The translations under genes and the position numbers were made by a program. From a virus, in IMG/VR virus record IMGVR_UViG_3300008267_011313, positions 1 to 20,872 of that record: a DNA stretch of 20,872 nt; one strand, given 5' to 3'. Positions 1,033-19,467 of the stretch are shown in pieces; within the stretch, counting starts at the first letter, position 1, and each line of letters opens with the position of its first letter. The notes beneath the pieces are model-generated. The model did no database searches, was not told where the DNA came from, and saw only the letters and a program-made list of their open reading frames with translations.

Positions 1033-1959
1033 ATGGATTTAAATAAAATTAAAGCAGAATTTGAAAAATGTCGGAAGGATCCCGTACACTTTATTTGTAA
1101 TTATATTAAAGTCGTACATCCGATATTTAGACAAGCTGGGTGTACTACTTTAGTTGCTGCTTTCTCACTTTGGAAATGTATGTTTACGCAACATTACAAG
1201 GTGGTTATTTTGTCTAAAGATGACGATGCGTCAATGGAAGTTTTATCTAGAATGAAGACTGCCTATGATGAGCTTCCAGAGTGGCTTAAGCCTAAAGTAG
1301 TTAAAGACTCAGCCCATGCCATGCGGTTTTCTAACGGGTCTGAAATTAAATCTAAGTCATCCTCAAAACAATCAGGACGTTCTGCTGCTGCATCACTACT
1401 AATTCTAGACGAAGCTGCATTCATTGAGAATATTGATACGATTTGGACTGCTGCATTCCCAATCATTTCAACAGGTGGCTCAGTTATCGCTCTTTCCACA
1501 GTTAATGGTGTAGGTAACTGGTTCCACAAACAATATGTTGGGGCTAGGCGTGGCGAGAACTCTTTTCATGCTATTGACATTAATTGGAAGGATCACCCCC
1601 AATATTTTCGGCATCATGGGTACGAGAAGATGTACGAAAAATTAATGGATCAGGATCCTCCAGTAAATATAGACGAATGGGAAGTTAAAACTAGAGGGTC
1701 TATTAGCCATAAAGAATGGCTACAAGAATACGAAGCCGAATTCTTAGGAACTGGCGATACGTTTATCGACGGCGAGATACTGAAACAATTAAAAGAGCAG
1801 ATAAATGAAAATTATTCAACACGTTATAACAACCGTCTTCGTGTGTGGAATGCTCCTCACCCTAGTCACGATTACGTTATTGGCGTGGATACTTCTATTG
1901 GTCGAGGCTTGGACACAGAACTCCAATTAACGAGTTTGCGACAATGCTTGTTGAGATAG
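1033..1959 (+). CDS. Large terminase, N-terminal part (gp17-like ATPase plus start of nuclease), disrupted
   Basis: This 308-aa frame carries the ATPase half of a T4 gp17-like terminase, which pumps DNA into the prohead through the portal. It has a Walker-A remnant RQAGCTT (33-39), Walker B plus catalytic carboxylate LLILDEAAF (Asp126, Glu127), motif C STVNG (155-159) and the first nuclease aspartate in YVIGVDTSIGRG (Asp286). Two things are wrong. First, HPI (29-31) abuts FRQAGCTT; the 30 or so residues that normally lie between, with the Q-motif-like region and the K-S-R-Q lysine, are absent. Second, after GRG (about 1908) the frame ends in 16 unrelated residues, while homology resumes in the -1 frame. 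GGAA at 1023-1026 is a weak ribosome-binding site. As read, the protein should be inactive. Confidence 0.85.
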   Translation: MDLNKIKAEFEKCRKDPVHFICNYIKVVHPIFRQAGCTTLVAAFSLWKCMFTQHYKVVILSKDDDASMEVLSRMKTAYDELPEWLKPKVVKDSAHAMRFSNGSEIKSKSSSKQSGRSAAASLLILDEAAFIENIDTIWTAAFPIISTGGSVIALSTVNGVGNWFHKQYVGARRGENSFHAIDINWKDHPQYFRHHGYEKMYEKLMDQDPPVNIDEWEVKTRGSISHKEWLQEYEAEFLGTGDTFIDGEILKQLKEQINENYSTRYNNRLRVWNAPHPSHDYVIGVDTSIGRGLDTELQLTSLRQCLLR

Positions 1960-2432
1960 CCCGCGAGTACAACACAGCGTACATCATACCAGAGCGAAAC
2001 CTTATTGGTCATAATTTAATCTACCAAATTAAGGAAATCGAGCAATACGAAAACTTGTTTATGGACGATAAACACGAGCCTGGAGTCCAGGTTGCGGATG
2101 CCAATAGGCGGCAAATGCTGGTAAATATGGATGAAGCAATAAGATTAAATAAAATTAAATTAAACTCAGAACGCACAGTAGATGAGCTTTTAACTTTTAT
2201 TATTGACGAATCGGGACGGTATACAGCCGACGTTAACTGCCATGATGACTTAATTATGGCTTTAGCGTTGGCGGTTCACGGTTTTAATGAGATAAGAGCC
2301 AATACTCCCATGATACAACATCGTCCAAATGATGATAATAAATTTATTATGCCTATCTCCCAGTCTAAATATGTTATTAGAACTCCAGGTGGTTTAATAC
2401 ACGAAGAAGATCTTAAATGGCTACTAAGTTAA
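1944..2432 (+). CDS. Large terminase, C-terminal nuclease part in the -1 frame
   Basis: This frame completes the terminase RNase-H-like nuclease domain. It contains YIIPERN (Glu17 of this frame, corresponding to T4 gp17 E458) and NCHDDLIMALALA (Asp101/Asp102, near T4 D542). Homology starts before the ATG: in this frame PINEFAT (1923-1943) immediately precedes the Met, as expected from TerL proteins with a helix ahead of the REYN segment. The ATG at 1944 is therefore probably internal and the fragment part of the same ancestral gene as 1033-1959. By comparison with T4 gp17, about 21 residues between GRG.D and this segment are missing; a loss of about 64 nt would explain the frame change. The end overlaps the portal start by 16 bp. 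Confidence 0.8.
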   Translation: MLVEIAREYNTAYIIPERNLIGHNLIYQIKEIEQYENLFMDDKHEPGVQVADANRRQMLVNMDEAIRLNKIKLNSERTVDELLTFIIDESGRYTADVNCHDDLIMALALAVHGFNEIRANTPMIQHRPNDDNKFIMPISQSKYVIRTPGGLIHEEDLKWLLS

Positions 2433-6092: not shown

Positions 6093-9000
6093 ATGCCAGC
6101 AGGACCCCGCGCTACTCCATTCCCTGTAGTAGTTCAGTTTAGTGATCCAACTAATCCAATTACTCCAACTAAATTGTTGGAGTCTAGTTCTTTGTTTGTT
6201 AATAGCTTGTCTGCTGTTACAATAAGTGCTACAAACTATCAGAACCTTCCGGCTATTGGTGGAGCCACTTCAGTCGGTCAATTAGACGGAACTGGAATAT
6301 TTGTTTTAACTTCAACTAATAATTCTCTAAGTTCTTTAGTTTATAACATTGAACTTTCCACTGTAGCGTTGTCCGCTTATATTGCAGCTAATCAAGCAAA
6401 TTGGGCTGCAACAGGGGGAGGCTCGCCTGGAGATTTAGCTGCGTATGTGCTAACTTCTGTAAATTTTTCTTTAAGCTCCTTAGTAAATTCACATATAAGT
6501 GATGGAACAATTCACTTTACTTCTGGATCCCTAAGTTCTTCATATGCACTATCATCTTGGGTAAATGATAATTTCATTGATACTACAGAAATTATTCAAT
6601 ATGCTACCACAGGATCTTTACTTCCTTATGCTTTAACTGCGTCCCTGTCTAATTACCTGTTAACATCTATAAATGTAACTTCTCTAGCTGGGACTTCGAC
6701 ATTTGAAACAACTGGGTATGCTAGAGCTAACTATGCAACAACTGGGCAGTTGCAATCTTATGTTTTAACGTCTACTAATATTTCCTTAAGCTCTATTGTA
6801 ACAGGCCACATAGATGACGGAACGATTCACTTTACTTCCGGTTCCTTAAGCTCTGTTTATGCTTTATCATCTTGGGTAAATGCTAACTTTATTGACAACA
6901 CAGAGATAACTCAATATGCTACCACTGGATCACTCCTTCAGTATGCACTGACCGCTTCATTATCTAATTACTTAGTAACCTCTGTAAATGTAACTTCTTT
7001 AGCTGGAACTGGGGTATTTGCATTAACAGGAACCATAGCTTTAAGTTCCCTTACAGATGTTACAATAACTAATCCTCAAAATTATCAAGTCCTTACTTGG
7101 AATGGCACATCTTGGCAGCCATCTGCAATTGCTGGCGTTGGAACTGCCGCAAGCCCAGGGGGAGCAACTAATGATATCCAGTACAACGCTGGGGGAGGAA
7201 GCTTTGGCGGAGCAAATGGTCTAACTTGGACTCCAGGATCTCAACTGCTTTCTGCTGTAAGCATTTATTCTGTAAATGCTAGTGCTACTACTATATCAGC
7301 AACGAATTATTTAAATCTCCCTAATTTTGCAACCACTGCTACAAACGTAACTTCTTTCCAGGGGACTGGAATATTTGAAACGACTGGTTACGCTAGAGTA
7401 AACTATGCCACAACTGGGCAGCTAAATTCATACGTTTTAACATCTGTAAATAGTTCTTTAAGTTCAACAGTTATCGGGCACATTTCAGATAATTCAATAC
7501 ACTTTACATCAGGATCATTGAGTGGGGCGTATGTACTAACCTCGATTAATTCAAATCTAAGTTCATTAGTTTCTAATATACAAGCTTCTACAATATCTCT
7601 TTCAAGTTATATTGCAGCTAATGAGAGTTCTTGGTCTAGTGCAGGCGCAACATATCTTTCATCTTTATTAGATGTTGATGTAACTTCTAATAATCTTCCA
7701 AAACATGGAGATATGATTTACTACGCTTCATCTTTTGATGGAGTAAGTATAATAAATAAATGGGTTACACTTGAGTCTGATGTTAATGGTTCTGGTTCTG
7801 TATTAAAACTACTTAACGATGGGAATGGAGGGGTTTATCCAACTTGGGATAATAACCGTTTAATAAATTTACAAGATGTATTTATTCCCAACACAATCTT
7901 TAATTCAAATGAAACTATTGTATATTCAAGTATAGACATAGGCGGGGGAAATAGTGAATTTAAATTTATTCCAACTCCGCTACCCCCCTATGGTTTTAAT
8001 GAAATAAATTGTTTAATTGATGGTAATAATATTGGGGATATACTTCTTGCTGGACCAACTGCCACTAACCTTAATATCAGCAGCCCAAATAATACAATCA
8101 TTGCCTCTGGATTTGCTCCAGGGGGCGGTAGTAAGGTATTAAATTTATCGGTTAGTAATATATTTTTAAGTTCAAATTTACAGGATGTTAATGTAACTTC
8201 AGTATCCCAAGGTGATAGTTTAGTATGGGACGGATCATATTGGATAGCCTCTGCAATTGAGGCAACTCCTGTAGATCTCAGCCCGTATGTTTTAACATCC
8301 ACAAACTTTGTACTTAGTTCTTTAGTTTCTAGCATACAAACTTCTACAATAGCTCTATCCTCCTATATCGCAGCAAATGAATCTGCTTGGCTGGCTGGGG
8401 GCGGGGTAACAGTACCCTCAGAATCATCTGCGGTCGTATTTGTTGGCAACCCAGGGACCTCTCTATCCGCAAACGCTGCCATAAGAATAAATAATTCTGC
8501 CAGTACTTTACAAATTTTTTCGGATTCAGCTTCTGAAACTGGAGGAATTGATCTTTTTCCAAATTCAAATACTGAAGGATTACTTAGATGGGATCCAGAT
8601 TATCATACCTTAGGTATTCAAGGTGACGATGAGACTAGAATAACTTTAGGAATTGACGAGATCATCCCAGTAAGAAATAATACTGGGTTGACCATTTATA
8701 AAGGTCAAGTTGCATATGTGTCGGGAGCAGCTACGGGAGCTTTCAGAGGGACTATAAGTCCCATGGATCAATTTATATTAAACCCATTTTCAATTGGAGT
8801 TTGTTTAAAAACAATAACAAATGGTAATGATGGGTATTTAATAAAACATGGCCTAATAAAAAATGCATCAATAAGTGATGTAATAAAACCTGGAACAGTA
8901 TTAACTACTGGTGATATTCTTTACATCTCTGATAGTCCAGGAAAATTAACTAATGTAATCCCTGGACCTGGAAACCATGCAGCTACAGTTGGAATATTCT

Positions 9001-12000
9001 TAGCGAGCGGAACTGGACAAATTAGTTTTGGGGTTACTGTCAAAGAGTTCCCCGATCTTCAAGATTTGCATGATGTGGGAGCAAATCCAACTCAGAATGG
9101 GGACACTCTAGCGTGGGATGCATCTTTAGGGTACTATGTAACGAGTAGTTTAAACAGCTACGTTTTAACTTCGGTAAATACTGCTCTAAGCTCCACAGTA
9201 ACTGGACACATTGCAGACGGAACTATACACTTCACTTCAGGTTCCTTAAGTTCTGCATATGCACTTTCGTCGTGGGTCAGTAATAACTTTATTGACAATA
9301 CCGAAATAACAGCATACGCAACCACCGCATCAGTTCAACAATACGAAACAACTGCGTATGCAAGAAATAATTATCTACTTACATCAGTAAACGTAACTTC
9401 CTTAGCTGGGACGAGTACGTTTGAAACAACTGGATATGCCAGAACAAATTACGCTACAACTGGACAGATCCAATCATACGTTTTAACATCTACTAATTTA
9501 AATTTAAGTACCCTCGTTGGAAGTATAGAAACTTCTACCATCGGTCTGTCTTCTGTACTAGGGAGCCACATATCATCTGCGGTACACTGGACTCGGGATC
9601 AATTAAATACTGATTACATTAATGCATCTGGAGACTCTGTAAATAGTAATTTTTATTTTAATAGCTTAAGTGCATCTGTTATTAGTGCCACAACATATTA
9701 TAATGTTAGACCGCTAGTCAGTTCTGTCAATAGCAACTCTGTAACTAGCTTTACAGTAGACCCTGTATATGATTATTACATTGTAAGCACAGCGGATTCT
9801 AAAGTTTTTGTAGATCTTCCAAATCCTGCTGGACTTGTAAATAAATTTATAGCTATAAGCAAAATAGAACAAGACGGATCCCACAGAAGCGTAACTGTAT
9901 CAAGCCAGTACCTTAAAATAGGTGGCGTGGGCACTGTAGGACAAAATTCTGTATCTATATTTGATCCAACAGAAAAAGTAGAGTTTATATCTGATGGAAC
10001 TTCATGGAATTTACTAGGATTCCAAAAATCTTACGGTGTAGTAACAATTGCAAAAAATCAAACTGGAGCAACTATCCCAAAAGGCACTCCAGTAAAAAAC
10101 TGTGGATCATCAAATGGAGTAATTTTAGTTTCTGGAGTATCCTCGACTAATACGAGCTTGCCAGTATCTATATATGATTTACCAGATTGCATAGGTCTAA
10201 CAGAACACAGCATACCAAATAATGAATTTGGGCATATCATCTCTAAAGGAACTTTATACGATGTAGACACGGGATCGTTCTTCGTAGGGGATGAACTTTA
10301 TGTCGCGGAAAACGGCGGGCTAACTAGGAGCAAACCTACTCAACCCTATGAAGTTATACTGGTAGGAACTGTTACTATAGCCCATGCTACCAGCGGAATA
10401 ATTGAAGTTGACATAAAAGACTTAATTCATTTAAATGACATCGTTGGATTTAATGTAGATCCAAGCTTATTAAACAATAGCGTTGCATCAGACTGGACAG
10501 TTCTAAGATATTCAAACACAGATAAAGCTTTTATAAATTCTAAAATAAACGTAGCTAATGTTGAGGGTACTGGAGTTTTTGAAACTTCAGCTTACTCAAG
10601 AACTAATTTCCTGTTAACTTCAGTAAATGTAACCTCTTTAGCTGGAACATCAACATTTGAAACAACTGCGTATGCTAGAAACAATTATGCTACAACAGGC
10701 CAGTTAGGAGCTTATGTTCTAACATCTGTAAACTTTTCCCTAAGTTCTTTAGTAAATTCACACATATCTGATGGAACTATTCACTTTACTTCAGGATCAC
10801 TTAGTTCAGCATATGCATTATCTTCGTGGGTTAATGATACATTTGAAACAACTTCCTACGCTAGAACAACTTACGCTACAACTGGACAACTTCAATCATA
10901 CGTTTTAACTTCAGTAAATCTTTCTTTAAGTTCTTTAGTAAACAACCATATAGGGTCTGCTGTACATTGGACAAGAGATCAATTAAATAGTGATTACATT
11001 AATGCCTCTGGCGATTCTGTAAATTCCAAGTTTTACTTTAGCGGAGTAAGCGCAACAACTTTAAGTGCAACTACTTACCAAGGGGTATCACTAAGCGGAT
11101 CCCTTACAGATGTTACTATTGCAAGCCCAGTAGACTATCAAGTTTTAACTTGGTACAATGGGACTTGGCAGCCATCTTCAATTACAGGCGCAGGCCCAGG
11201 CGGTGGAACTCCAGGTGGAAACTCAACTGAGCTACAATATAATAACGGTGGCTCTTTCGGAGGTACAAGCGAATTAGTTTGGAATAGCACTCCTAAGCTC
11301 TTGTCAGGAACAAATATCGCTGCATTAAATTTTAGTGGAGGAACAGTATCTGCTACAACTTACTTAAACCTTCCTAATTTTACTACAACATCTACAAACG
11401 TAACAGCGTTCCAAGGCACAGGGATATTTGAAACTACCGCATATGCCAGAACTAATTATGCGTATTTGTCAGGTGCAGTATTTACCGGAGGGGTTAGTGC
11501 AAGTCAATTTTCAGCAACAAATTACTATAACCTTCCATCAGGAACAGCAATATGGAATGCTAACAGTCTTCTAGGAGTTCCACTAGAATTTAATACGGTC
11601 GTAGGTAATTTAACTGATGCAGATTTACTGTTTTACTCAGTTTCGTTGGGTAATAAGTGGATAAATGCAAATGGTCCTGTTTGGGTAGCAGCGGTGGGCG
11701 CAATATTTAATGCAAACAAGATTCAGGGAACTTCAGTAACAGCAACAGCCCCAACAAACAAACAAGGGTTGATTTATGACTCTACTGGAACGTCTTGGAA
11801 ACCAACTACATTAAATCTTAGTACAACATTAAATGATGTTCAAATTACTACAGTAGCTAATGATAATGTTCTAACTTGGTCATCAACTGCTGGCAAGTGG
11901 GTTCCAAAAGCTTTCGCAGCGGCAGCGGCTAAAAATCTGTCTGAGCTTGAAGACGTAAATGTGGACACTGTACCACCAAATCAATCTCTTGGAGATTATG

Positions 12001-12887
12001 CGGTATTGCAGTGGGATAACAGTGTGGATGGTAAGTGGGAGGGCATGGAAGCTGCGACTTGGATAAGTAATGTCCAATCCAATATAGATCACAACTCTTT
12101 AACTAATCTCCCAAATGGCAACCCTCATACACAGTATGCCACTCTATCTGGATCTGTATTTACAGGTGGAGTAAGTGCTGTTACTATATCTGCTACAAAT
12201 TATGTAAATCTCCCATCTGGAACTGCGATATGGAACGCTAGTCAGTTAAGGGGAGTAAACGTAACTGCAACAACTCCAACCACGCACCAAGCTTTAGTTT
12301 ATGATGGAGTAAACTGGACCCCTTCATCCTTACCCTCCCCCGTAGGGACAACTCCAGGAGGTCCAAGTACATCCGTTCAATTTAATAATAACGGACAATT
12401 CTCTGGAGTAGCTGAATTTGATTTCATCGCAAGCGGATCAAGATTAGAAGTTCCTATACTTTCAGCTACGACAGTTTCTGCTAATACGTTTGCTATGACA
12501 TATGTATCTGCGGCCCTAGCTGCGGATATTCAGATGCCGACCTCCAATGCTTTCGTAATTGGACCTTCTGCAACAATAGGTCCTGGAACTTGGCTTGTGA
12601 ATGCACACGCTACATTAAATAGGTCTACTACTACAGCGGCTACTTATACAGTAAGAGTTGCTTTAGGCTCAACCACCGTTGCTAGCACTAGCCAGTACCA
12701 TGCTTCTGTAGCAGGAATTGCAACTAATGTGTCCCTAACTTGTATAGTTTCTACTGGCGCGAGCACTACCATAGGTATAAGGGCAGCTACTAGCGCAGGA
12801 GCAACCACAGAATTGTTAAAAGCCTCAGCACCAATAAGTGCCGATGGAAATAATGCTACAATTATAACTGCTTTAAAAATAGGATAA
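6093..12887 (+). CDS. Giant repeat-rich tail fibre or virion adhesin, 2264 aa
   Basis: This Ser/Thr/Asn-rich, nearly cysteine-free protein is probably a trimeric fibre. The N-terminus has TISATNYQNL and a GGATSVGQLDGTGIF segment shared with the next gene, a likely virion-attachment region. The body alternates several modules: a 41-residue unit (YVLTS...HFTSGSLSS...ALSSWVN); a NVTSLAGTSTFETTGYAR...ATTGQL unit; a HWTRDQLN.DYINASGDSVNS unit (about 1163 and 1624); and several L.DV...VLTW....W.P units. Two copies of a globular N.TG.TI.KG domain occur at about 856-1000 and 1315-1455. The last 130 residues (from about 2135) lack repeats and look like a beta-sandwich tip that could bind the receptor. 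AAGGT (6083-6087) lies just before the ATG, 10 bp after the previous stop, so it is in the same operon. Confidence 0.8.
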   Translation: MPAGPRATPFPVVVQFSDPTNPITPTKLLESSSLFVNSLSAVTISATNYQNLPAIGGATSVGQLDGTGIFVLTSTNNSLSSLVYNIELSTVALSAYIAANQANWAATGGGSPGDLAAYVLTSVNFSLSSLVNSHISDGTIHFTSGSLSSSYALSSWVNDNFIDTTEIIQYATTGSLLPYALTASLSNYLLTSINVTSLAGTSTFETTGYARANYATTGQLQSYVLTSTNISLSSIVTGHIDDGTIHFTSGSLSSVYALSSWVNANFIDNTEITQYATTGSLLQYALTASLSNYLVTSVNVTSLAGTGVFALTGTIALSSLTDVTITNPQNYQVLTWNGTSWQPSAIAGVGTAASPGGATNDIQYNAGGGSFGGANGLTWTPGSQLLSAVSIYSVNASATTISATNYLNLPNFATTATNVTSFQGTGIFETTGYARVNYATTGQLNSYVLTSVNSSLSSTVIGHISDNSIHFTSGSLSGAYVLTSINSNLSSLVSNIQASTISLSSYIAANESSWSSAGATYLSSLLDVDVTSNNLPKHGDMIYYASSFDGVSIINKWVTLESDVNGSGSVLKLLNDGNGGVYPTWDNNRLINLQDVFIPNTIFNSNETIVYSSIDIGGGNSEFKFIPTPLPPYGFNEINCLIDGNNIGDILLAGPTATNLNISSPNNTIIASGFAPGGGSKVLNLSVSNIFLSSNLQDVNVTSVSQGDSLVWDGSYWIASAIEATPVDLSPYVLTSTNFVLSSLVSSIQTSTIALSSYIAANESAWLAGGGVTVPSESSAVVFVGNPGTSLSANAAIRINNSASTLQIFSDSASETGGIDLFPNSNTEGLLRWDPDYHTLGIQGDDETRITLGIDEIIPVRNNTGLTIYKGQVAYVSGAATGAFRGTISPMDQFILNPFSIGVCLKTITNGNDGYLIKHGLIKNASISDVIKPGTVLTTGDILYISDSPGKLTNVIPGPGNHAATVGIFLASGTGQISFGVTVKEFPDLQDLHDVGANPTQNGDTLAWDASLGYYVTSSLNSYVLTSVNTALSSTVTGHIADGTIHFTSGSLSSAYALSSWVSNNFIDNTEITAYATTASVQQYETTAYARNNYLLTSVNVTSLAGTSTFETTGYARTNYATTGQIQSYVLTSTNLNLSTLVGSIETSTIGLSSVLGSHISSAVHWTRDQLNTDYINASGDSVNSNFYFNSLSASVISATTYYNVRPLVSSVNSNSVTSFTVDPVYDYYIVSTADSKVFVDLPNPAGLVNKFIAISKIEQDGSHRSVTVSSQYLKIGGVGTVGQNSVSIFDPTEKVEFISDGTSWNLLGFQKSYGVVTIAKNQTGATIPKGTPVKNCGSSNGVILVSGVSSTNTSLPVSIYDLPDCIGLTEHSIPNNEFGHIISKGTLYDVDTGSFFVGDELYVAENGGLTRSKPTQPYEVILVGTVTIAHATSGIIEVDIKDLIHLNDIVGFNVDPSLLNNSVASDWTVLRYSNTDKAFINSKINVANVEGTGVFETSAYSRTNFLLTSVNVTSLAGTSTFETTAYARNNYATTGQLGAYVLTSVNFSLSSLVNSHISDGTIHFTSGSLSSAYALSSWVNDTFETTSYARTTYATTGQLQSYVLTSVNLSLSSLVNNHIGSAVHWTRDQLNSDYINASGDSVNSKFYFSGVSATTLSATTYQGVSLSGSLTDVTIASPVDYQVLTWYNGTWQPSSITGAGPGGGTPGGNSTELQYNNGGSFGGTSELVWNSTPKLLSGTNIAALNFSGGTVSATTYLNLPNFTTTSTNVTAFQGTGIFETTAYARTNYAYLSGAVFTGGVSASQFSATNYYNLPSGTAIWNANSLLGVPLEFNTVVGNLTDADLLFYSVSLGNKWINANGPVWVAAVGAIFNANKIQGTSVTATAPTNKQGLIYDSTGTSWKPTTLNLSTTLNDVQITTVANDNVLTWSSTAGKWVPKAFAAAAAKNLSELEDVNVDTVPPNQSLGDYAVLQWDNSVDGKWEGMEAATWISNVQSNIDHNSLTNLPNGNPHTQYATLSGSVFTGGVSAVTISATNYVNLPSGTAIWNASQLRGVNVTATTPTTHQALVYDGVNWTPSSLPSPVGTTPGGPSTSVQFNNNGQFSGVAEFDFIASGSRLEVPILSATTVSANTFAMTYVSAALAADIQMPTSNAFVIGPSATIGPGTWLVNAHATLNRSTTTAATYTVRVALGSTTVASTSQYHASVAGIATNVSLTCIVSTGASTTIGIRAATSAGATTELLKASAPISADGNNATIITALKIG
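6444..10835 (+). repeat. Dispersed 41-codon fibre repeats (module A)
   Basis: Four full units of exactly 123 bp lie at 6444-6566, 6759-6881, 9159-9281 and 10713-10835. A shortened fifth copy is at about 7431-7539. Each encodes YVLTS, a short helix-like segment, GHI or SHI, DGTIHFTSGSLSS and YALSSWV. Units 1 and 4 differ by one residue in 41 but by 19 codons. A second module (NVTSLAGT..FETT.YAR.NYATTGQ) precedes or follows most copies, so the fibre grew by duplication of combined blocks. Confidence 0.85.
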
Positions 12888-17592: not shown

Positions 17593-17622
17593 ACCTACTA
17601 TTATAGTAGATATAGGAATTAT
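17593..17622. promoter_or_regulatory. Palindromic divergent promoter or operator candidate between uvsW-like and gp26-like genes
   Basis: The 30-bp spacer contains the perfect 15-bp palindrome CTACTATTATAGTAG (17595-17609; 7-bp arms around one base). It supplies TATAAT on the minus strand, 7 bp before the helicase ATG, and TATTAT on the plus strand (17599-17604). In the plus direction this would give a leader of about 12 nt containing AGGA (17614-17617), five bases before the ATG. A symmetric -10 serving both directions, or a repressor or activator site, would both fit. Confidence 0.4.
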
Positions 17623-18366
17623 ATGTCAAACTTAGATAAATTTCAACCGGATCGAGACTCTAGAATGGATCGTTTATTTGGGGATGCCCCAATAGAGACT
17701 GATGTAGTCATCAAACTCCCAACTGAAGGTAGATTTTATGTTGGAGGTCGGGCGGAAATAACGATCAGCCCAATAAAGTTTGAAGACGAGAAGCAATTAT
17801 CTACCAGTGTTAAGAATGGCATCAATCCAATAAATTTAATGTTATCCAAGTGCGTTAAAGGAATTGATACAAATTCATTACTTTTAATAGATAAAATCCT
17901 AGTTTTATTAAAAATAAGAGAGATTTCTTACGGTGAGAATTATCCAGCCCATGTAGTGTGCCCCAAGTGCATGGCAGAAGCTGATATTAATATTGACCTT
18001 AGCAAGTTAGTGGTAAACTATCTCCCCCAGGACATCTCGGATCCTAGAGAGATAACCCTTCCAAAACTTAAGAAAATTGCTAAAGTTAGATTTCCTAGGG
18101 TATCAGATGAACAATTTTTAAATAATCAAGAGCAAATATACAATAATATCTGGAGATTCGTTACCGAGCTAGACGGGACTACTGACCCAGTTTTTATTAG
18201 CCGCGCCATCCCTAAGATGCATATTCGGGATATTAAGTTTATTTTAAATAATATCCTACGTTCAGATCTTGGTTTAGATCCTAAGTTTATTTTGCATTGT
18301 GCTGAGTGTGGGGGGGAGTCGTTAATTACGGTTCCAATCAATGAAAATTTTTTTTCAGTGACCTGA
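17623..18366 (+). CDS. gp26-like T4_baseplate-family protein (baseplate hub/tail assembly)
   Basis: The 247-aa zero-frame product fits the T4_baseplate (gp26) family: an LPT.GRFY start to the domain (32-39), a DE-containing segment, LLLIDKILVLLKIREISYGENY (86-107), then a zinc-ribbon-like pair CPKC (113-116) and CAEC (226-229). The family is associated with baseplate hub formation in T4. It is a little longer than T4 gp26 (208 aa). The start has AGGA at 17614-17617. The last codons run through eight T (18348-18355), and a well-formed -1 frame extends 62 codons beyond, so a longer form is likely. Two CxxC pairs suggest metal binding. Family assignment comes from pattern recognition and should be confirmed with a profile search. 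Confidence 0.75.
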   Translation: MSNLDKFQPDRDSRMDRLFGDAPIETDVVIKLPTEGRFYVGGRAEITISPIKFEDEKQLSTSVKNGINPINLMLSKCVKGIDTNSLLLIDKILVLLKIREISYGENYPAHVVCPKCMAEADINIDLSKLVVNYLPQDISDPREITLPKLKKIAKVRFPRVSDEQFLNNQEQIYNNIWRFVTELDGTTDPVFISRAIPKMHIRDIKFILNNILRSDLGLDPKFILHCAECGGESLITVPINENFFSVT

Positions 18367-18542
18367 CAGCCAAAATAAACATAGAGGACTTGCTTCTAGA
18401 AGCCTACATACTGGTAAGTAAATGTAGTTTTACTTATCAAGATGTAAAGTCTATGACAAAGCTCGAAAGGGCTGTGTTTTTGAAGTTATACACCAAAGAT
18501 CTGGAAGCTCAGAAAAATGCTTTTGAACAACATATCAATTAG
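18345..18542 (+). CDS. C-terminal extension ORF read by -1 frameshift from the gp26-like gene
   Basis: This frame overlaps the end of the gp26-like gene and continues to a TAG at 18540-18542. It reads as normal protein: DLTAKINIEDLLLEAYILVS, then a YQDVKSMTKLERAVFLKLY segment. The (M)..(E)R..(F)L..L pattern near the end recalls small proteins downstream of phage tail-assembly chaperones. No good independent start exists: the frame has no ATG before 18439, and a TTG at 18390 has AGAGG very close. Slippage by -1 on T_TTT_TTT (18348-18354) joins it after Phe244 of the gp26-like protein to give about 306 aa. The end overlaps the next gene start (18517) by 26 bp. Separate translation from a non-ATG start remains possible. 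Confidence 0.7.
   Translation, partial: KFFFSDLTAKINIEDLLLEAYILVSKCSFTYQDVKSMTKLERAVFLKLYTKDLEAQKNAFEQHIN
18348..18355 (+). promoter_or_regulatory. Probable slippery site (eight T) for -1 frameshift
   Basis: In the zero frame the codons are AAT TTT TTT TCA, so the heptamer T_TTT_TTT has the X_XXY_YYZ phase needed for tandem -1 slippage. Eight T could also cause RNA-polymerase slippage. A perfect 12-bp palindrome GCTTCTAGAAGC lies at 18392-18403, 37 nt downstream, which is further than usual for a stimulatory hairpin. The zero-frame stop TGA follows at 18364-18366. Confidence 0.65.
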
Positions 18543-19467
18543 TGAGAGAAACAATCGACCCGCCGTGTTGGAGAAGGTCGGATTACAGGCTTTCTTTTTA
18601 TTAGACGGACAGTACGCTGATCCATACCAAATCAGTGCTGTTACTATCTTTGCTAGATCGGATAATCTTTATCCAAGCTCACTTCTAGTAAACTCCACTC
18701 AGTTAATAGACACTACAAACGTCAGCGGGCAGATTCTAATGAACTTCTGCAACTCATCTGCTGATACAAGCAACGTCGCCTTCAATGTATCGAACTACAC
18801 TGGCGGGCAATCAGCCAGCGGTATATTTAGAACTGGTGTTGGAAAGTACATTGTTATTCTTGATGGAACTATCAACCTTTCCGGTGTTATAAATCTGGAT
18901 GGACTTAACCAGCGTATAGCCAACGATGCTCAAGTAACAAAAGATTACAACGACATCTGGACTCTAAGGATGGCACAAGGCTCAGAGCTTCAAGTTGTAA
19001 TCAATGAGTTCAAGCTGAGAAAAGGAGGCTTTACAGTTATCACTGAGCCTCTAATGCTCAAAGCTAAGACTCGACTAATAAACAGCAAAGTAACACTAGG
19101 ATCAAAGGTTGATCTAAAACTAGCTACTAACATTGTCGTTGAGAACATGGGAATAGATGAGTCAGTAAAGAATCTACTTAGAGACAATGTGATTACGGGT
19201 GGCTCAATAGAAATTGTAAAAGTAAACGAAGCCGCTAACTTGCCCGCTAAGGTTACCGTATCAAGCTTTGCCGATACATCTGCCTACACTTCAATGAGTG
19301 CAGACAATGTGATGATATTCACTTGGAACACGGAAACTCTATCATCCCATCCACAAGTGACAGCAGGTAATTTTGATTCAACTCGTGGTGTCTACGCGAT
19401 CAGAGCTAAGTACAATCTGTTCAACGAGGTGTTGGTTACAGATCCAATGTACCTAACCCTGACATAA
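18517..19467 (+). CDS. Unknown 316-aa protein, probably virion or tail structural
   Basis: I do not recognise this family. The sequence is rich in beta-forming, Ser/Thr/Asn-containing stretches (DGTINLSGVINLDGL near 116-130; VTVSSFADTSAYTSMSADN later) with little Cys and no signal peptide or membrane segment. That is typical of phage structural proteins. It has a helix-favouring middle (RIANDAQVTKDYNDIW). Position directly after the gp26-like gene and its frameshift ORF, with a 26-bp overlap, suggests a tail or baseplate role. GGAAG at 18503-18507 is a plausible ribosome-binding site. The last 32 bp overlap the convergent primase gene. Alternative roles such as head decoration cannot be excluded. 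Confidence 0.65.
   Translation: MLLNNISISERNNRPAVLEKVGLQAFFLLDGQYADPYQISAVTIFARSDNLYPSSLLVNSTQLIDTTNVSGQILMNFCNSSADTSNVAFNVSNYTGGQSASGIFRTGVGKYIVILDGTINLSGVINLDGLNQRIANDAQVTKDYNDIWTLRMAQGSELQVVINEFKLRKGGFTVITEPLMLKAKTRLINSKVTLGSKVDLKLATNIVVENMGIDESVKNLLRDNVITGGSIEIVKVNEAANLPAKVTVSSFADTSAYTSMSADNVMIFTWNTETLSSHPQVTAGNFDSTRGVYAIRAKYNLFNEVLVTDPMYLTLT

Follow-up and report, generated by a model that had tools for sequence, protein, structure and literature searches.

Atkins et al. 2016 (PMC5009743) describe frameshifting of the G-T type as widely conserved among long-tailed phages "except T4". The T4 proteins gp26 and gp51, which are listed as hub assembly chaperones (PMC3004832), are regarded as the tail assembly chaperones of T4-like phages following the work of Vladimirov, Gautam and Davidson 2022, as cited in PMC10885494 and PMC12846349, and the title of that work argues for a mechanism other than frameshifting. 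In place of a frameshift, some T4-like phages are reported to have a short gene and a long (fused) one (PMC10885494). In addition, T4-like chaperone genes are known to contain poly-T slippery signals, and the paper reporting this suggests that they were noted by Vladimirov et al. 2022 (PMC12846349). The same source gives a GTTTTT signal for the TAC of phage Adele and of the Vandenendeviridae/Andersonviridae.

Organization of the locus

We identified a gp26-type gene in the window, that is, the whole 20,872-nucleotide stretch of viral DNA analysed here. It is very likely a tail-assembly chaperone gene of a T4-related phage in which a -1 ribosomal shift on a run of eight Ts (T8) gives a short and a long form. 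The locus includes the following features:

17614-17617: SD-like AGGA ahead of the zero-frame ORF
17623..18366, + strand: zero-frame ORF for the gp26-type short form (TAC-N / G-like), 247 aa, with matches in PF12322, phrog_150 and BFVD
18348..18354, + strand: slippery heptamer T_TTT_TTT, inside the T8 run 18348-18355; AAT TTT TTT is invariant in 16/16 loci
18364..18366, + strand: zero-frame stop TGA (TAA, TGA or TAG among relatives)
18354..18542, + strand: -1 frame extension, the gp51-type C-terminal part (T-like), 62 codons and the stop TAG
18412..18439, + strand: conserved hairpin, 57 nt 3' of the T run, possibly without a role
18517..19467, + strand: next ORF, 316 aa, with a 26-nt overlap with the end of the extension; the overlap is conserved

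The zero frame ends with AAT TTT TTT TCA GTG ACC TGA, which puts the heptamer exactly in the phase that a -1 tandem slip requires. The -1 frame opens with the TTC at 18354-18356 and continues through 18539, and its stop TAG (18540-18542) falls within the ORF that starts at 18517. A preliminary description of this DNA had claimed that the -1 frame stops inside the next gene, and on this point, as in its coordinates and arithmetic (zero-frame end, heptamer phase, 62 codons, 306 aa), it was right. The long product would comprise 244+62 = 306 aa, with the predicted junction peptide ...PINENFFFSDLTAK. The T8 run is the sole T or A run of at least 7 in the 20.9 kb window. Shuffles of both strands of this AT-rich contig give 3.6 T8 runs by chance; the mere presence of such a run is unremarkable, and its placement and conservation are the point.

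Relationship to gp26 and gp51 of T4

The zero-frame protein is a member of PF12322 (T4_baseplate; E 1.2e-14), with residues 32-244 covering positions 9-218 of the 219 in the profile and a score of 55 bits against the curated cut-off of 24.5 bits. It also matches phrog_150 (baseplate hub; E 1.1e-17), and its best match in BFVD is the baseplate hub subunit of SP-15 (E 8.7e-15). In T4, both gp26 and gp51 are full-length PF12322 proteins, and gp51, not gp26, continues into phrog_634. Since both proteins belong to PF12322 and gp51 bears a C-terminal extra piece, profile comparison equates T4 gp26 with the short form and T4 gp51 with the long form. The proteins named gp26 in P1, P22 and other literature are different proteins and were rejected as counterparts.

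Fold searches of the PDB (Foldseek) gave no match below E 0.3 and no similar solved chaperone, and sequence searches of the PDB likewise gave nothing informative; the gp26 model used in the fold comparison with known tail assembly chaperones has a pLDDT of 77. Bacterial genomes scanned with P0001 yielded no relative and hence no clue to the host.

Conservation of the putative shift site

We compared the window with 15 contigs encoding relatives at 60-89% amino acid identity, making 16 loci in total. All 15 relatives have kept the T8 run at the same codons (GAAAATTTTTTTTC), the zero-frame stop and the -1 ORF. Conservation of a T run together with an overlapping -1 ORF in homologous loci had been proposed as a check on the frameshift, and it is seen throughout the clade. 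The zero-frame stop may be TAA, TGA or TAG, at a distance of 21-24 nt from the GAA codon; the -1 ORF hardly varies in length. At each of the 16 loci, therefore, the 3' end of the gene has a conserved, in-phase slippery heptamer and a -1 frame that is open past the stop.

The codons of E-N-F-F-F-S are 100% identical among the 14 distinct fused proteins, which is the highest stretch of the gene, the median elsewhere being about 0.5. Throughout the clade the AAT codon has T as its third base; this base provides the X of X_XXY_YYZ and precedes any sequence that is read in both frames. The conservation of T8, stop and -1 ORF in 15 relatives puts this T run beyond chance.

A sequencing or assembly error, with a true T count that places both parts in one frame, would also account for the broken reading frame. 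The contig shows signs of faulty assembly elsewhere, its terminase gene having gaps of 87 nt and 61 nt compared with a relative. Nevertheless, the same T8 is found in 15 contigs under other IMG identifiers, and these concordant relatives, with their varied stop codons and near-constant lengths, led us to reject the error, to which we give hardly any credence. The different T count that the preliminary description named as grounds for abandoning the shift is likewise contradicted.

Coding nature of the -1 extension

Substitutions in the extension are distributed over positions 1/2/3 of the -1-frame codons as 975/343/1594, a pattern which indicates that the extension is selected as protein in the -1 frame. 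We found no conserved start codon of its own in the -1 frame of any relative. The first ATG is extension codon 36 in every relative, and the earlier TTG codons differ in place among relatives and are missing in L005 and L007. The extension is under protein-coding selection and has no start of its own, which agrees with its earlier portrayal as ordinary protein lacking a good start.

The extension model is helical, with a pLDDT of 86. The extension has a weak match to phrog_634 (baseplate hub assembly catalyst; E 0.021, profile positions 63-114) and a modest direct match to the T4 gp51 C-terminus (hhalign, E 2e-4, probability 48%); a BLASTP comparison with this C-terminus gave nothing, so the match is by profile comparison only. 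The presence of a gp51-type C-terminal part in the long form is seen more strongly in cyanophages, where the alignment of the fused product with T4 gp51 spans the junction and nearly the whole length (E 1e-14). The extension is no extra piece, as the preliminary description had it; it matches the C-terminal part of T4 gp51.

The second frame could instead be a separate small gene, with its own start or coupled to the upstream stop, as the cyanophage "gp51" is annotated. Cyanophages have an ATG 5 nt past the gp26 stop, and the Pseudomonas phage Cygsa01 has no heptamer and carries a TAATG overlap instead, both of which would suit such a gene. In the window clade, on the other hand, the first ATG lies beyond conserved residues, the earlier TTG codons are scattered, and a separate gene leaves the invariant slip codons unexplained. 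With no conserved start, we rejected a second gene in the clade and consider this explanation highly improbable. A homologue with its own ATG and no slippery run, which had been put forward as a case against the shift, was found only in the distant Cygsa01.

Slippery sites in other lineages

We also examined a cyanophage-type set of 80 contigs with 54 distinct gp26 proteins. The gp26 gene in this set has the invariant end NNT TTT TTC, followed by one codon and the stop, with the short gp51 as the -1 frame; all 54 distinct proteins have T_TTT_TTC and then the -1 "gp51" frame. The TTT and TTC codons are the only fully codon-invariant columns of the 103 conserved ones, and the codon before them always ends in T, though it may encode Ser, Asp or Asn. 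Among rhizobium phages, IC12 has T_TTT_TTC and RL38J1 has T_TTT_TTG, and in IC12 the -1 frame does not open with an ATG. A 46-aa "hypothetical protein" after gp26 of IC12 (L034, 3179-3360) resembles a truncated call of the -1 extension from T_TTT_TTC.

The extension is in the +1/-2 frame in SP-15, LIS04, GXN1, L017 and L022. Sister-group extensions are located at L019 3626-3931, L020 3551-3871, L021 3632-3997, L017 3273-3548 and L022 3722-4021, and the +1/-2 extensions of the sister group are unannotated or annotated as a small hypothetical protein. NCC_CGA_TTY near the stop is common to LIS04, SP-15 and GXN1, and a T6 run is found in LIS04, SP-15 and L017. The end of T4 gp26 (GAG TTC TTT GAG TTA CTA TAA) is not slippery.

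Proposed mechanism of the shift

According to the proposed mechanism, most ribosomes would end at the stop at 18364 and produce the 247-aa gp26-type short chaperone, and some would slip back one base on the eight Ts to produce the 306-aa long form. By analogy with lambda gpG/gpGT and with published T4-like work, the short form may coat the tape measure and the long form may bridge to tube or baseplate proteins. The conserved site and the coding extension make a -1 shift that yields short and long products with 244 shared residues, as originally suggested, the best reading. That the ribosome makes the slip, and how efficiently, is inferred.

The long form might also arise mainly by RNA polymerase slippage on T8, through loss of one U or gain of two. 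T runs of eight or more are slip-prone for polymerase, this one is the only T/A run of at least 7 in the window, and T8 is invariant in the clade together with the A4 that precedes it. Moreover, we found no classical ribosomal stimulator: the clade alignment has neither a conserved stem 5-9 nt downstream nor a conserved SD-like element 10-14 nt upstream, and a G-rich stretch about 30 nt upstream was rejected as an SD-like stimulator because it is not conserved. However, the cyanophage and rhizobium sites have only six Ts in the exact X_XXY_YYZ phase, which makes ribosomal slippage the easier reading in the cyanophages. The two frames, which here need Phe (TTC, -1 frame) and Ser (TCN, zero frame), largely dictate the eighth T of the clade, and the T in the third position of AAT fits the ribosomal heptamer. 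We therefore think it unlikely that polymerase slippage is the main route, although it may add to ribosomal slippage on U8. A ribosomal slip is preferred because homologous sites elsewhere keep the exact heptamer phase with only six Ts.

The AU-rich hairpin at 18412-18439 is inside the extension and is preceded by an invariant GAAGCCTACATA block. It folds at -10.9 kcal/mol (z -6.4, for a stretch chosen after the alignment), and against a synonymous-codon null it gives P 0.002-0.03 in 11/12 sequences; one compensatory pair occurs, in L008. Lying 57 nt downstream of the T run, it is too far away for a classical stimulator role.

Possible evolution of the chaperone gene

In a maximum-likelihood tree of 37 gp26-type domains, in which the root was not fixed, the T4-type gp26 and gp51 share one side of a branch (95/93), apart from the genes of cyanophages, rhizobium phages, the window clade and Thornevirus. 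Thornevirus, GXN1 and L017/L022/L023 form a group with the window clade (100/100). An unrooted tree that keeps gp26 and gp51 together is consistent with the replacement of one shifting gene by a duplicated gp26/gp51 pair in the T4 (Straboviridae) lineage. We lean towards a history in which the ancestral T4-related chaperone gene frameshifted on a T run to give both forms, as the window clade and the cyanophages seem to do to this day, a duplication in the Straboviridae hard-wired gp51, and gp26 lost its slippery site. If this is true, the exception in "all long-tailed phages except T4" would be a derived state.

Genomic neighbourhood and other features of the contigs

Chaperone genes usually lie between the tail tube and tape measure genes. 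The gp26-type gene directly follows the tail tube gene in SP-15, LIS04, IC12 and RL38J1, and it is just ahead of the gene for the tape measure (or a large putative tail protein) in SP-15 and LIS04. In the window clade it adjoins neither the tube nor the tape measure gene, its neighbours being a UvsW-like helicase and the 316-aa ORF. The tape-measure candidate of the clade is weak (phrog_23574, E 0.0024) and is four genes downstream of gp26. This candidate is a protein of 571 aa at 8825-10537 of L128, within a conserved block.

The large subunit of the terminase is split in the window (1033-2432; 308 aa + 162 aa), and in relatives it is a single unbroken ORF of about 515 codons. Two stretches of L132, of 87 nt and 61 nt, are missing from the window; the part between them is 87% similar and the flanks 96-98%, which suggests a chimeric assembly or a damaged gene. 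In G009, the contig of L013, the terminase (21506-23555) is broken into two frames (294 + 368 codons), and its matched parts lie about 900 nt apart, possibly owing to an intron or a homing-nuclease insertion. The window also contains a very long fibre-like ORF (6093-12887; 2264 aa) with many LTSVN/SSLVNSHI-type repeat segments.

Comparison with known systems

The link between gp26-type proteins and the G/GT chaperone class that the preliminary description proposed holds, but it is not new, having been published by Vladimirov et al. 2022, as cited in the papers above. Given that the chaperone role of gp26/gp51 and the poly-T signals are already in print, the locus represents no new class and is a well-supported new case.

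As in the TAC of phage Adele (PMC12846349), whose extension exceeds 200 bp, the 3' end of TAC-N in this locus carries a T-rich site with a predicted -1 shift. The virus families, the run and its context differ, and the likeness is one of arrangement. The resemblance to lambda gpG/gpGT is in the short protein and the rarer -1 fusion with a common N-terminal part, which here are predicted. The differences from lambda are that sequence and fold comparisons detect no solved chaperone resembling the window protein, and that the window-clade gene is not adjacent to the tape measure gene. The cyanophage gp26/short gp51 pair shares the slippery heptamer at the end of gp26 and a -1 frame of about 60 codons, whereas its heptamer is T_TTT_TTC instead of T_TTT_TTT, an ATG lies 5 nt after the stop, and annotation treats the second frame as a gene of its own (Sf-FS3). 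The cyanophage "gp51" after gp26 is probably a frameshift extension and not only a separate small gene, which could serve as a rule for annotation.

T4 gp26/gp51 resemble the two forms of the window in having PF12322 in both and in the C-terminal piece of gp51, which corresponds to the -1 extension; T4 differs in having two genes and a gp26 end that is not slippery, where the window has one gene and a predicted -1 shift. The conserved slippery sites of the window clade and of the cyanophage-type gp26 indicate that many T4-related phages use the shift; in their light, the two separate genes of T4 look like a derived state. The G-T frameshift appears to occur in a phage lineage that was formerly counted as being without it.
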